From a virus: a stretch of DNA of 23,359 nucleotides. Made by a program: the position numbers and the translations under genes. Below the pieces are notes generated by a model that ran no database searches, was not told where the DNA came from, and saw nothing but the letters and a program-made list of their open reading frames with translations. The stretch's first letter is position 1, and each line of letters starts with the position of its first letter. The stretch covers positions 1 to 23,359 of IMG/VR virus record IMGVR_UViG_3300047666_000648; one strand, given 5' to 3'. Shown here one piece after another: positions 1,077 through 5,007 of the stretch.

Positions 1077-1186
1077 GGGGGGAGGTCGTGAAGGTGGAGT
1101 TATAAGCCTCTTTATCCCCGGCCAAACACAGCTTGCATTTTTAACCATTTTTCAAGACCCCCCTTTTAAATTCAAAGTGCTTTAAC
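1068..1186 (+). other. Non-coding GC-rich structured stretch upstream of terS; candidate cos/packaging region
   Basis: This 119-base stretch holds no convincing gene. It contains a G-rich tract (1077-1085) within an inverted repeat, GGACCGGGG (1072-1080) against CCCCGGCC (1116-1123), with a bulged A. It then turns AT-rich (TTTTTAACCATTTTTC, C6 tract, TTTTAAATTC) up to the terS start. In cos phages the cohesive-end site commonly lies immediately upstream of terS and next to an HNH gene, as here. This is inference from position and composition only; a promoter or leader for the terminase operon is an equal possibility. Confidence 0.3.
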
Positions 1187-1609
1187 ATGCCACGAGCCAA
1201 AAAAGCAAAGCCGAAAGAGTTAGAGTTGGTGGCCACCCCATCCAGCAACCTACCCATGCCACCTGACTACCTAACCACAGCCGGGGAGGATATGTGGTTT
1301 AGGATTTGCGCTCAACTGATGGAGATGCAAATCCTAACGGATGCGGCTTACCCCCAAATAGCTGACTACTGTTTCAACTGGCAAATCTTTGTTTTCAATG
1401 CGGGCGAGGTAAAATCAGAAGACACACCTGGCGTTGAAATTTACAGCACAGGCAGCCGTGGGCTAAGTGCCAATTTTAAAGCAGCGACGGAGGCCCGAAA
1501 AAGCATGGTAACGTTTGAGCGGTACTGGGGACTTAATCCGATGTCTCTAGCAAAGATCAACCTGCCAGCAAAGATCAGCGACGAAGACGAAGAAGATTTC
1601 ATACTATGA
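1187..1609 (+). CDS. terS: Terminase small subunit, P27 family
   Basis: A 140-residue protein that would bind the packaging site and recruit the large subunit. It begins with a basic segment (MPRAKKAKPKELEL) and then has the P27-type pattern 'MPPDYLTTAGEDMWFRICAQLMEMQILTDAAYPQIADYCFNW' (residues about 24-65), followed by the 'SANFKAATEARKSMVTFERYWGLNPMSLAKINLP' region (about 93-126) and an acidic tail (DEDEEDF). These match the phage terminase small subunit P27 family (PF05119). The stop overlaps the terL start by four bases (ATGA), indicating translational coupling. The start has an AT-rich leader and no Shine-Dalgarno sequence. Confidence 0.88.
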   Translation: MPRAKKAKPKELELVATPSSNLPMPPDYLTTAGEDMWFRICAQLMEMQILTDAAYPQIADYCFNWQIFVFNAGEVKSEDTPGVEIYSTGSRGLSANFKAATEARKSMVTFERYWGLNPMSLAKINLPAKISDEDEEDFIL

Positions 1610-3234
1610 TCAGCAGTGTTGCAACCATAGACAAAAAGAAATACCGCTACGATCCAGAAGCGGCTGAGAAACCTATCCGCTTTTTTGAAAAGTATCTAAT
1701 CCACGTTCAGGGCGATAAAGCTGGCAAGCCTTTCATCTTGGAGGATTGGCAAAAGTTCCACATCCGGCAGGTGTTCGGCTGGATAAACAAGAAAACAGGC
1801 GACCGAAAGCACCGCTATTTTTACCTCGAAATACCAAAAGGTAACGGTAAATCTGCTTTTGTCTCCGGTCTGGCGCTGTACATGGCTGGGGTAGATGGCC
1901 CTAAAGCGTCCGAGACATACTGCGTAGCTGGCGACCGAGAACAGGCTCGAATTGTTTTCGATAGTTGCGTAGAACTAATAAACAATAACAGCAAGATAAA
2001 AGACAAATTCAAGCCCCTACGCTTCAGCATAACCCACAAGGCCAGCCGCAGTACCATCAAGGTTCTCAGTTCGGATGTTAGCGGAAAGCACGGTTTCCGG
2101 CCCTACTTCATTGCCTTTGACGAGATGCACGTGCAGCCTAATCGCGAGCTGTACGACGTTCTAACGAAGGGAATGATGAAAAGCCGCAACAGCCTTTGCG
2201 GAATGATTACCACGGCGGGCGAGATTGGTACGTTTGCCGAAGAGATTCACGACACGGCGGTAAGCATCGCAAAGGGATTAGTTCAGAACGAGTATTGGTA
2301 CGTGGCCATCTATTCAGCTTATGATGAAGAAGGCAACCAGCCCGACCCCCAGGACATATTTAACGAAGAGGTCATTGCCCAGGCCAACCCTGGCTATGGC
2401 GACAACTCTATCATTCGCCCTGCTGACTTCGACATCATCGTCCAAGACACGAAAGCTCAGAAGACCGGCATCGCGTCCTATCTTCAGCTACATCTAAACG
2501 TTTGGGTTGGCTCGCTAAACGCATACATAAACGTCAACGATTACCGACGCTGTAACGAAGGCCCGATTGATCTCGACTACCACCACAAGAATAATACCCG
2601 ATGTTACGGAGGTCTTGACCTTGCCAGTACGGAGGATTTAAGCGCCTACACCCTAGTTTTCTTTCCCTCTGGTGGTAAGCCTGAATTTGTTACTTGGTTT
2701 TGGTGTCCAGAAGATACCATTGCCAGCCGTTCAAAGAACCAAAACGTAAATTACCGATATTGGGTAGACGAAGGCTTCATCTTCACCACTCCCGGTAACG
2801 TTCAGGATAAGAACGCGATCAAATCCTTTATTGCGGAGACTTGCGAGCGGTTCAATGTTGCGGTAATCAATACCGACCCATCCTTCCACCGAGCGGTTTT
2901 GGGTAGCTGGATAGAAGAATTGGCCCTACCTATTGAGGCATTCAACCAGGGCATTACCAACTTTTCAGAACCGACCAAGAATCTAAAGATATTGGTTGCT
3001 AGTAATGCTATCAACGTTGGCGATAATCCTGTGATGGAATGGCAGATAGATAATACGATGGTTTACGAAGACACAACCGGCAAGGTTAAGCCAGTCAAGA
3101 CGATAGGCCGAGGGCGCGGCCGGGGTGCGCAGCGCAAAAAGATAGACGGCGTGGTATCATTAGTGATGGCACTAGCAGGAAGCCTACATGACGATTACAA
3201 AGAACCAGCAAGTTGGGATATAGTATGGAGATAA
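1606..3234 (+). CDS. terL: Terminase large subunit
   Basis: The 542-residue packaging motor ATPase and headful/cos nuclease. The N-terminal ATPase has a variant Walker A loop, PKGNGKS (residues 77-83), and a Walker B followed by the catalytic glutamate, FIAFDE (D172-E173). The C-terminal RNase-H-fold nuclease shows the expected acidic residues in YGGLDLAST (D338), INTDPSF (D424) and KKIDGVVSLVMALA (D514). Length and motif order agree with the HK97/lambda-like Terminase_1 group (PF03354). A basic GRGRGRG segment (about 501-507) precedes the last nuclease motif. The gene overlaps terS by four bases and its stop overlaps the next start by ten bases, so it is part of one translational unit. Confidence 0.96.
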   Translation: MISSVATIDKKKYRYDPEAAEKPIRFFEKYLIHVQGDKAGKPFILEDWQKFHIRQVFGWINKKTGDRKHRYFYLEIPKGNGKSAFVSGLALYMAGVDGPKASETYCVAGDREQARIVFDSCVELINNNSKIKDKFKPLRFSITHKASRSTIKVLSSDVSGKHGFRPYFIAFDEMHVQPNRELYDVLTKGMMKSRNSLCGMITTAGEIGTFAEEIHDTAVSIAKGLVQNEYWYVAIYSAYDEEGNQPDPQDIFNEEVIAQANPGYGDNSIIRPADFDIIVQDTKAQKTGIASYLQLHLNVWVGSLNAYINVNDYRRCNEGPIDLDYHHKNNTRCYGGLDLASTEDLSAYTLVFFPSGGKPEFVTWFWCPEDTIASRSKNQNVNYRYWVDEGFIFTTPGNVQDKNAIKSFIAETCERFNVAVINTDPSFHRAVLGSWIEELALPIEAFNQGITNFSEPTKNLKILVASNAINVGDNPVMEWQIDNTMVYEDTTGKVKPVKTIGRGRGRGAQRKKIDGVVSLVMALAGSLHDDYKEPASWDIVWR

Positions 3235-3494
3235 TTGCACCAAAAGACTTAACGAAGCGGGAACGTGCGGCGCTACGGTACGTTGTCGCAATGCTGAACA
3301 AAGATTACTACTTCGAGCAGTACTATCAGTTGGTCGGCGACCTTTCACCTGTTGCGGCATTTCAAGCTAACGAACGGGCGCTTTTTGACCTGTGCGGCGC
3401 TAATCGGTACGAAGACTTTGAGAGCTTCCGGCAGATGCGGCGGCGGTACGTCAAAAGGCTAGGTTATGCGGCAAAAAAATCTAATAATTTTTGA
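3225..3494 (+). CDS. Unrecognised 89-aa phage protein between terL and portal
   Basis: The ATG at 3225 overlaps the end of terL by ten bases and is preferred over an in-frame TTG at 3213. The product is helical-looking and charged, with many aromatic and Arg residues: it starts MEIIAPKDLTKRERAALRYV, then 'NKDYYFEQYYQLVGDLSPVAAFQANERALFDLCGANRYEDFESFRQMRRRYV'. It has no membrane segment and no motif I can name. Its position between terL and portal suggests a packaging or head-assembly accessory, but this is only context. Its last 31 bases overlap, on the opposite strand, the end of the minus-strand gene 3464-3658. Confidence 0.75.
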   Translation: MEIIAPKDLTKRERAALRYVVAMLNKDYYFEQYYQLVGDLSPVAAFQANERALFDLCGANRYEDFESFRQMRRRYVKRLGYAAKKSNNF

Positions 3495-3658
3495 GCGTCA
3501 TCTTTTGTGTACAAATGTTCACATCTTTCCCGGCTAGAGTAGATTAGTTTTAATGGAAAAACTTGGTTCTTTAGCGCCCAATCCTGAAATTTTTTCCTTA
3601 AATCATTGTCGGACCATGTGATATTTACTAGGGCTGTTTTTTTTATTTCTATTCGCAT
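3464..3658 (-). CDS. Candidate antisense small gene (moron-like), 64 aa
   Basis: This is the only minus-strand frame that occupies otherwise empty DNA. It runs opposite to the late genes, from the CAT at 3656-3658 down to a stop inside the 3' end of the upstream gene. The 64-residue product (starting MRIEIKKTALVNITW, with FQDWALKNQVFPLKL and EHLYTKDDAQKLLDFFAA) has balanced, globular composition. The segment is visibly more AT-rich than its neighbours, as in late-acquired 'moron' genes. A palindrome (3673-3692) lies just upstream of its start. I do not recognise the family. A non-coding AT-rich spacer remains possible. Confidence 0.5.
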   Translation of the reverse strand: MRIEIKKTALVNITWSDNDLRKKFQDWALKNQVFPLKLIYSSRERCEHLYTKDDAQKLLDFFAA

Positions 3659-3672
3659 ACTGCAAGATACAA

Positions 3673-3692
3673 AACGTAACCTAGTTTACGTT
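3673..3692. promoter_or_regulatory. 20-bp near-perfect palindrome, candidate operator
   Basis: AACGTAACCTAGTTTACGTT has 7-bp arms that match perfectly (AACGTAA at 3673-3679 and TTACGTT at 3686-3692). The centre, CTAG, is itself palindromic, so only one pair is mismatched over 20 bp. It lies 14 bases upstream of the minus-strand gene and 31 bases upstream of the portal start. On the minus strand it overlaps TACGTTTTG, which resembles the Bacteroidota -7 element TAnnTTTG with one extra T; no convincing -33 TTTG is seen. The symmetry suggests a dimeric regulator site; no regulator gene is visible in this window. Confidence 0.45.
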
Positions 3693-3723
3693 AAGATCCT
3701 GTTTGCGGGCGGTTCTTTACACC

Positions 3724-5007
3724 ATGACCGCACCAAACCTACCAGTAAAAGCCGTGAAAAGCCCTTCCTTTTGGAGATGGGCAACGGGCTGGATGGCAGG
3801 TGAAAAGCGGTATTCAGTCGAAACCGTAACAAGTTCGGACAAATTCAGCGCGTGGAAACAGCTTTTGGTAAGCTGGGGCGTGAATGATGATCTAATTTTA
3901 GACGAAAAAACGGCTCAATCCATCCCCGCATTTAACCGGGCAATAGAGATTATAGCCACGCAGATTGCAAGTCTACCAATTAGCATCTACCGAAGTGAGG
4001 ATAATGGAAACCGACAGGAGGCCAAAGACCACCCGTTGTATCAGTTGCTGAAATTTCGGCCACACCCTCTTTACAACTCAGGCGACTTCCGCGCAGCCAT
4101 CATCCGAATTTTGATTTTGCGCGGTAACTGCTTTGTTCGCGTGGTCGGTAGCGGGGGCGGTATTAAGATGCTCGAAATCATTGACGAACGCACGGCCGAC
4201 ATCGTGAAAGTAGGCACAAACTACTTCTACAAGTTTTCGGACATCAACGAAGCTCTGAGTGCTGACGAAGTGCTGCACTTCAAGATTAACAGCATGGATG
4301 GCATAAGCGGCCAGAGCACGTTGGACCTGTTCAAAGACTGTTTAGAACGCGCCCAGGCCGAGATACGGCTCGGCAAGATGTACTACACAAAAGGCGGCCA
4401 GGTTGGTGGCGTATTAGCTCCCGATCAACCGATGGACGTCAAGCAATTTGAGCAGGCCCGCGCCGCATGGAACCGCACCAACATCGGAATGGATAAAATG
4501 GGCCAGGTGGGTATGCTGCCTATTGGCGTGAAGTACGTAAAGCTAGGCGATAGTCTAAACGAAAACCAGCTAAACGAAAGCCGCGCTCGCACCACCGAGG
4601 ACATCAGCAATATGACTGGCGTTCACCCCATCCTTTTGGGAGCAATGGACAGCGCCACGTTTAGTAACGTGGAAGAACTGAACAGGGTATTTGTGCAATT
4701 CACCCTGCGCTCATTCATCAAGATAATTGAGGACGAGTTCAACACTAAAGCAATTAGCAAAAGCGAACGCGATACAGTTCGCGTCCGATTCAATACTGCT
4801 GGCCTCCTTCGTGGAGATACCAGCGCCCGCGCTGACTACTACATGAAAATGCGAACTACTCAGTCCATGTCTCCCAACGAGATCCGGGCGCTAGAAAATA
4901 TGAACAGCTACGAAGGTGGGGATAGGTACGACCTGCCCCTAGCTTCCAATATTAAGCCACAAGAGCCGCAATCGGACCAAAATAGCAACGAAGATGAGCA
5001 AGGTTAA
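3724..5007 (+). CDS. Portal protein, HK97 family
   Basis: The 427-residue portal forms the dodecameric ring at one capsid vertex through which DNA enters and leaves. Family features (PF04860) are visible: an N-terminal 'IPAFNRAIEIIATQIASLPISIYR' segment, 'DHPLYQLLKFRPHPLYNSGDFRAAIIRILILRGNCFVRVV', the 'DEVLHFKINSMDGISGQSTLDL' wing, 'EARTTEDISNMTGVHPILLG'-like stem region, and 'RTTQSMSPNEIRALENM' in the C-terminal crown. I chose the ATG at 3724; an in-frame TTG at 3703 would add seven residues. The end overlaps the protease start by 14 bases, giving the usual portal-protease-capsid cassette. Confidence 0.94.
   Translation: MTAPNLPVKAVKSPSFWRWATGWMAGEKRYSVETVTSSDKFSAWKQLLVSWGVNDDLILDEKTAQSIPAFNRAIEIIATQIASLPISIYRSEDNGNRQEAKDHPLYQLLKFRPHPLYNSGDFRAAIIRILILRGNCFVRVVGSGGGIKMLEIIDERTADIVKVGTNYFYKFSDINEALSADEVLHFKINSMDGISGQSTLDLFKDCLERAQAEIRLGKMYYTKGGQVGGVLAPDQPMDVKQFEQARAAWNRTNIGMDKMGQVGMLPIGVKYVKLGDSLNENQLNESRARTTEDISNMTGVHPILLGAMDSATFSNVEELNRVFVQFTLRSFIKIIEDEFNTKAISKSERDTVRVRFNTAGLLRGDTSARADYYMKMRTTQSMSPNEIRALENMNSYEGGDRYDLPLASNIKPQEPQSDQNSNEDEQG

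Follow-up and report, generated by a model that had tools for sequence, protein, structure and literature searches.

A small inverted open reading frame in an AT-rich island between a terL-linked gene and the portal gene of a phage

Layout and composition of the locus

The window, a virus record of 23,359 bases analysed over its whole length, carries on its plus strand, in this order, terS, terL, the small gene orf88, an AT-rich island, portal, protease and major capsid, the protease and capsid genes being named by position and by capsid matches. The upstream landmark of the locus was terL (1606–3234, plus strand), encoding the terminase large subunit, which was identified with Pfam (TerL_ATPase, 3.2e-24; TerL_nuclease, 9.5e-20) and PHROGs (terL, 5.7e-123). 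Directly after terL begins orf88 (3228–3494, plus strand), a small conserved terL-linked gene that could be aligned with four relatives over its length, with conservation of GANRY..D...FR.MRRRYV. The downstream landmark was the portal gene (3724–5007, plus strand; Pfam Phage_portal, 8.9e-78). The two closest relatives of the locus were the contigs L087 (portal 51%, capsid 46% and orf88 40% identical) and L180 (55%, 49% and 41%).

The island is the orf88–portal spacer of 229 nt (3495–3723, GC 0.376). A minus-strand open reading frame (ORF) of 64 codons, a candidate accessory gene for a protein here called P0001, extends from an ATG at 3658 to a stop at 3464 and is free of internal stops; at its 3′ end it shares 31 nt (3464–3494) with the convergent orf88, and its start lies 65 nt from that of portal. 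The intact frame and its overlap were as described in the original prediction, and its statement that all other genes lie on the plus strand holds for every gene placed in the window. The span given there, 3464–3700, is correct for the ORF at 3464–3658; its upper boundary takes in spacer beyond the ORF start.

The AT-richness first reported between the terL-linked gene and portal was also found. The 195-nt P0001 ORF has a GC content of 0.333, compared with 0.485 for the whole window, and on the 195-nt scale only two segments of the window were equally AT-rich (369–588 and 3459–3674). A base composition differing from that of the neighbours, a trait of morons, was therefore present in the P0001 ORF; the minus-strand ORF is, however, not peculiar in its AT-richness, because the second segment covers most of a plus-strand gene (405–626, GC 0.347). 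The latter gene encodes a 73-residue, lipoprotein-like protein related to PHROG 19356 (phrog_19356), with a homologue in the Cellulophaga phages Nekkels_1 and Nekkels_2 (E 2e-3).

The orf88–portal junction in relatives

The junction was compared among 16 distinct contigs that hold both an orf88 homologue and portal; L087, L180 and other structural relatives were found by portal, orf88 and capsid scans. An orf88-like match together with portal was initially found in 18 relatives, from which L037, L042 and L043, AT-rich phages with weak orf88 matches, were dropped (spacers of 54 or 177 nt in L037 and L043, depending on the start chosen, and 451 nt in L042) and to which L180 was added. The orf88–portal spacer measured 47–123 nt in the 16 relatives versus 229 nt in the window, and neither the minus-strand frame nor the extra DNA was present in any of them, L087 and L180 included. 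The clean absence from relatives envisaged in the original prediction was thus observed in 16 of 16, as was the moron trait of absence from close relatives at the same locus, the closest of these sharing only 51–55% portal identity. The length of the island exceeds chance. Since none of the 16 relatives has it, the island is taken to be an addition in the lineage of the window, the alternative of parallel loss in all others being unlikely. As orf88 aligns almost to its end, the extra DNA starts at or just inside the last orf88 codons.

The genes flanking this junction have different sets of relatives. The terL of the window is 72–82% identical to that of L002, L006–L010 and L014, whereas portal, where visible among these (L002 and L008–L010), is only 24–28% identical and other genes fill the terL–portal gap; conversely, the best portal relatives (51–55%) have terL at only 25–27%. 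The stretch 1606–5007 is read as a mosaic junction. In the gap of one close terL relative (L009, the same contig as L004) lies a plus-strand gene for a 200-residue protein (L009 3647–4249), which we take to resemble a proteasome-type (HslV-like) hydrolase.

A terminator-like hairpin lies between orf88 and the portal promoter in 13 of the 16 relatives, that of L087 being weak; in the window no terminator hairpin was found on either strand. One explanation of the island is suggested by this difference, namely that an antisense RNA convergent with orf88, rather than a protein, matters, replacing the missing terminator by transcription interference and so separating the terL and portal units. The extension of the P0001 ORF 31 nt into orf88 is in keeping with such a role, but no promoter was recognised for the RNA, positions 3200–4000 gave no match in Rfam, and the three relatives that lack the hairpin, L180 among them, have no island either. 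We regard this explanation as improbable.

Upstream of portal, the relatives share a conserved element. In 13 of the 16 (L013 at 2400, L050 at 2372, L011 at 2446 and 10 others), the doublet GTTTACNNNGTT(A/T)AC was found at a distance of exactly 49 nt upstream of portal, and it was present nowhere else, on either strand, in the 120.6 kb of the relatives' loci and the window; the portal starts were picked among candidates, and many of the 13 relatives are close to each other. GTTTAC or GTTAAC was present at -40 in 14 of 16 relatives (the 13 with the doublet, in which it forms a part, and L102). The motif is not universal, as L087 has GTTTAC at -15 instead and L180 has none. In the window, GTTTAC (3684–3689) occupies the place of the right half-site, at -40 relative to portal, and the left half-site is replaced by an inverted copy, which yields an imperfect inverted repeat (3673–3692) with GTTTAC as the right half-site of a putative portal operator or promoter. 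About 22 nt past the doublet, just before the start codon, the relatives carry a sequence such as CACCTTTG or CAATTTTG, of which GTTCTTTA in the window (3712–3719, plus strand), 22 nt past GTTTAC, appears to be a degenerate counterpart.

In the available text of PMC6847099, the Bacteroidota promoter consensus is given as TTTG at -33 and TANNTTTG at -7, and the relatives' CACCTTTG and CAATTTTG appear close to this -7 element. The doublet matched none of the Bacteroidota LexA operators given in the available text of PMC8565304. It may serve as an operator or activator site in a late promoter and could be bound by a regulator of host or phage origin. The GTTTAC doublet would mark a regulated late promoter in this phage group, probably of Bacteroidota, a promoter for which no description was found in the portions of the literature covered by our search. 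The host of the window phage may itself be a member of the Bacteroidota, as suggested by the TTTG-type promoter of the relatives and by the 73-residue gene described above, which has a counterpart in Cellulophaga phages.

Part of the island is accordingly predicted by its sequence to be regulatory, as it holds the conserved portal half-site. This bears on a second explanation of the island, in which the spacer grew as regulatory or neutral AT-rich DNA and the minus-strand frame is meaningless; a partly regulatory spacer is what that explanation would lead one to expect, but the relatives need only their 47–123 nt for the same junction. A promoter for the minus-strand ORF was not recognised: the sigma-70 scan gave none, and the Bacteroidota-type scan, which allowed at most one mismatch in the -7 element, gave 46 sites in the window, none of them at the minus-strand start or the portal start. 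Scans of this kind, which look for consensus promoters and terminators, leave room for an own promoter of the ORF.

An exact 9-nt direct repeat, GGTTCTTTA, occurs at 3565–3573 and 3711–3719, 146 nt apart, the latter copy overlapping the degenerate portal -7 element. An insertion with a 9-nt target duplication was considered and rejected, as the repeat fails to bracket the ORF, and the repeat is probably due to chance.

Coding potential and relatives of P0001

Length by itself is weak evidence that the P0001 ORF is coding. An ATG-initiated ORF of at least 64 codons arose in 117 of 2000 (5.9%) dinucleotide shuffles of the 229-nt spacer, a frequency that favours a meaningless frame, and with ATG, GTG and TTG starts an ORF this long was obtained in 226 of 2000. 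The frames could not be told apart by amino-acid log-odds computed for each.

Composition was assessed with a classifier, a logistic model on amino-acid fractions in which 589 GC-matched pieces of 63 residues from long phage ORFs were set against random ORFs from shuffled island DNA, with five seeds. Real pieces and random ORFs were separated with an AUC of 0.988–0.994 across the seeds, and P0001 scored 0.64–0.66 at equal priors. Scores at least as high were reached by 1.9–3.7% of random ORFs and by about 91–93% of real pieces, which places P0001 at the 8th–9th percentile of real phage pieces. The content of aspartate plus glutamate was 14.3% in P0001, 14.5% in real pieces and 4.5% in random ORFs. 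A first version of the classifier, made without GC matching and with the start methionine kept, had scored P0001 at 0.79–0.85; because it scored a GC-rich antisense control at 0.71–0.85 as well, the second version was relied on.

AlphaFold without an alignment modelled P0001 as strand-strand-helix-strand-strand-helix with a pLDDT of 80.7, a pTM of 0.57 and nothing below 50, the five models ranging in pLDDT from 80.7 to 49.3; the single antisense control, an ORF of equal length, reached 69.1. The protein-like composition and the compact single-sequence model argue against a chance ORF, and on balance we lean towards P0001 being a translated gene. That the frame arose by chance is a real but lesser possibility, to which the lack of a homologue and of a recognised promoter or terminator lends support.

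The original prediction did not recognise the protein, and indeed no family was matched in Pfam, PHROGs, NCBIfam or PADLOC at E values up to 10. P0001 had no match in the viral or genome contig collections, in scans that need exact 8-residue words and thus miss distant relatives, and nothing was found in 15 + 9 related viral records. With tblastn, phages and plasmids gave only partial matches (E 9 and E 2–7) and the relatives' loci a best E of 0.41; blastn of the island against phages gave short matches only, at E 0.8 or worse; and the best match among PDB sequences had an E of 0.1 over a 23-residue stretch. The predicted protein P0001 is an orphan, with no relative in any collection searched, and since it has no detectable relative, selection on its frame cannot be shown.

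Searches with the P0001 model by Foldseek and VIA-align returned common alpha/beta arrangements only. With Foldseek, LAGLIDADG endonucleases headed the PDB matches (2dch first, with E 0.11 and a query TM of 0.66), and among viral proteins the best match was a homing-endonuclease-domain protein (E 0.035). Together with the two copies of GGTTCTTTA at 3565 and 3711, this could point to a decayed mobile gene, a minus-strand fragment of a homing endonuclease of the LAGLIDADG or a similar type. No Foldseek match fell below E 0.001, though, and Pfam gave none at E up to 10; no LAGLIDADG motif was seen in P0001; the best VIA-align rows were ACT-domain aspartokinases with Z at most 7.5, a common arrangement; and a unit defined by the repeat, besides not bracketing the ORF, would take the conserved half-site along. 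A homing-endonuclease remnant, which we consider very improbable, was dropped as a candidate, there being no match at E <0.001 and a different common fold being ranked first by VIA-align.

Inverted cargo in the terL–portal slot and known antisense genes

Distant relatives were examined for the content of the same slot. Over 119 junctions, among them that of the window and those of some near-duplicate contigs, the gap between the terL stop and the beginning of the match to portal ranged from 10 to 3,681 nt, and because of this range the slot is seen as a site of gene gain and loss. The cargo of the 119 slots was mostly on the plus strand. Inverted genes of assignable family were found in two slots: L134 carries a BrnT/BrnA toxin–antitoxin pair (2219–2831, minus strand; Pfam 4.7e-22 and 8.4e-07) and L115 a NUDIX gene (1.3e-14). 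Two further slots hold inverted genes without a family match, for a 107-residue protein in L118 and a 266-residue protein in L133, and all four belong to more distant phages. Left out of this count were L117, which has the same 107-residue gene as L118; L116, in whose stretch no terL was found; and further inverted frames of at least 45 codons (e.g. in L132, L106 and L028), which on visual inspection were classed as antisense shadows or as unproven. In L116 an inverted toxin–antitoxin pair (1177–1843, minus strand), ParE accompanied by a sub-threshold match to Phd/YefM, lies upstream of portal.

An inverted accessory gene in the terL–portal slot is, on this survey, a known occurrence, uncommon and not seen in the nearest kin of the window. 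No description of inverted cargo at this junction came up in the portions of the literature covered by our search. The BrnT/BrnA pair of L134 and the NUDIX gene of L115 are like the P0001 ORF in slot, orientation and type of accessory gene, but unlike P0001 they belong to known families, and they have no detectable relation to it; in L115, moreover, an HNH gene (PHROG 1.7e-34) follows terL where the window has orf88. The records of L133 and L118 carry tyrosine integrase and resolvase-type recombinase, so that two of the four records with inverted cargo have an integrase or resolvase; neither was found in the window or in the other six records searched.

The P0001 ORF resembles a moron by position and composition, and the moron-like insertion first proposed was supported in part. 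The island is AT-rich and lineage-specific, and inverted genes occupy the same slot in distant relatives; against this, no promoter or terminator was recognised, and the 23-kb record, possibly a fragment, yielded no integrase or resolvase. None of the moron traits examined was contradicted. The best reading, to which we give an even chance, is a lineage-specific, inverted, small accessory gene of the moron-like kind. Such a gene is plausible in view of the inverted cargo of distant relatives at this place and of the nearly identical layout of tab in phage JBD26, described below. The kind of accessory gene is already known; the P0001 protein itself is an orphan.

Under this moron-like reading, the island would have been inserted in this lineage, after the stop of orf88 and ahead of the portal promoter, and would carry one small inverted accessory gene, whose frame would be translated into a compact small protein. 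Expression of the ORF would start from the spacer that it and the portal promoter share in divergent orientation and would not depend on the late genes, and P0001 might act in phage–phage or phage–host conflict, for instance by protecting the lysogen or the infected cell, as Tab does; this function is a guess from position only. A broader proposal seems rather unlikely to us: that throughout this wide phage group the terL–portal junction, lying just ahead of a dedicated late promoter with the GTTTAC doublet as its mark, generally takes up inverted cargo of the defence type, and that P0001 founds a new family of very small phage-encoded defence or counter-defence proteins, working in divergent arrangement with the portal promoter. 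If one junction does repeatedly receive inverted cargo, reading the backward genes between the terL-linked gene and portal would yield more defence candidates.

According to the available text of PMC7067206, accessory loci, among them STMMW_20121 of prophage ST64B, characteristically lie antisense to the lytic genes; transcription of STMMW_20121 from its own promoter was measured by RNA-seq (PMC7067206). STMMW_20121 and the P0001 ORF are both antisense to lytic genes, P0001 being known here from its sequence.

Tab, the product of gene 31 of Pseudomonas phage JBD26, is according to the available text of PMC10884400 a protein of 83 residues encoded on the minus strand from its own promoter. The gene is located in the late region, with terS on one side and terL on the other, Tab blocks tail assembly of invading phages, and its convergent neighbour is a dedicated antidote always found with tab (PMC10884400). 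In the JBD26 record, tab shares 47 nt with the convergent gene 30 and lies 30 nt before the next plus-strand gene, which is terL by the gene order in the available text of PMC10884400. A corresponding pairing of P0001 with orf88 as its antidote was rejected, since the 16 relatives that lack the island have orf88 all the same, and BLASTP of P0001 against Tab gave no similarity (E 0.68 over 14 residues). The two loci differ in position, the P0001 ORF lying between the terL-linked gene and portal, and in that promoter and activity have been demonstrated for Tab. In architecture they are alike: in each, a small orphan frame on the minus strand is set among late packaging genes of the plus strand, runs into the convergent gene upstream (by 47 nt for tab and 31 nt for the P0001 ORF) and lies just ahead of the next late gene. 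Tab, a small inverted gene product of a phage late operon that proved to be a defence factor, is the best architectural match to the P0001 locus.
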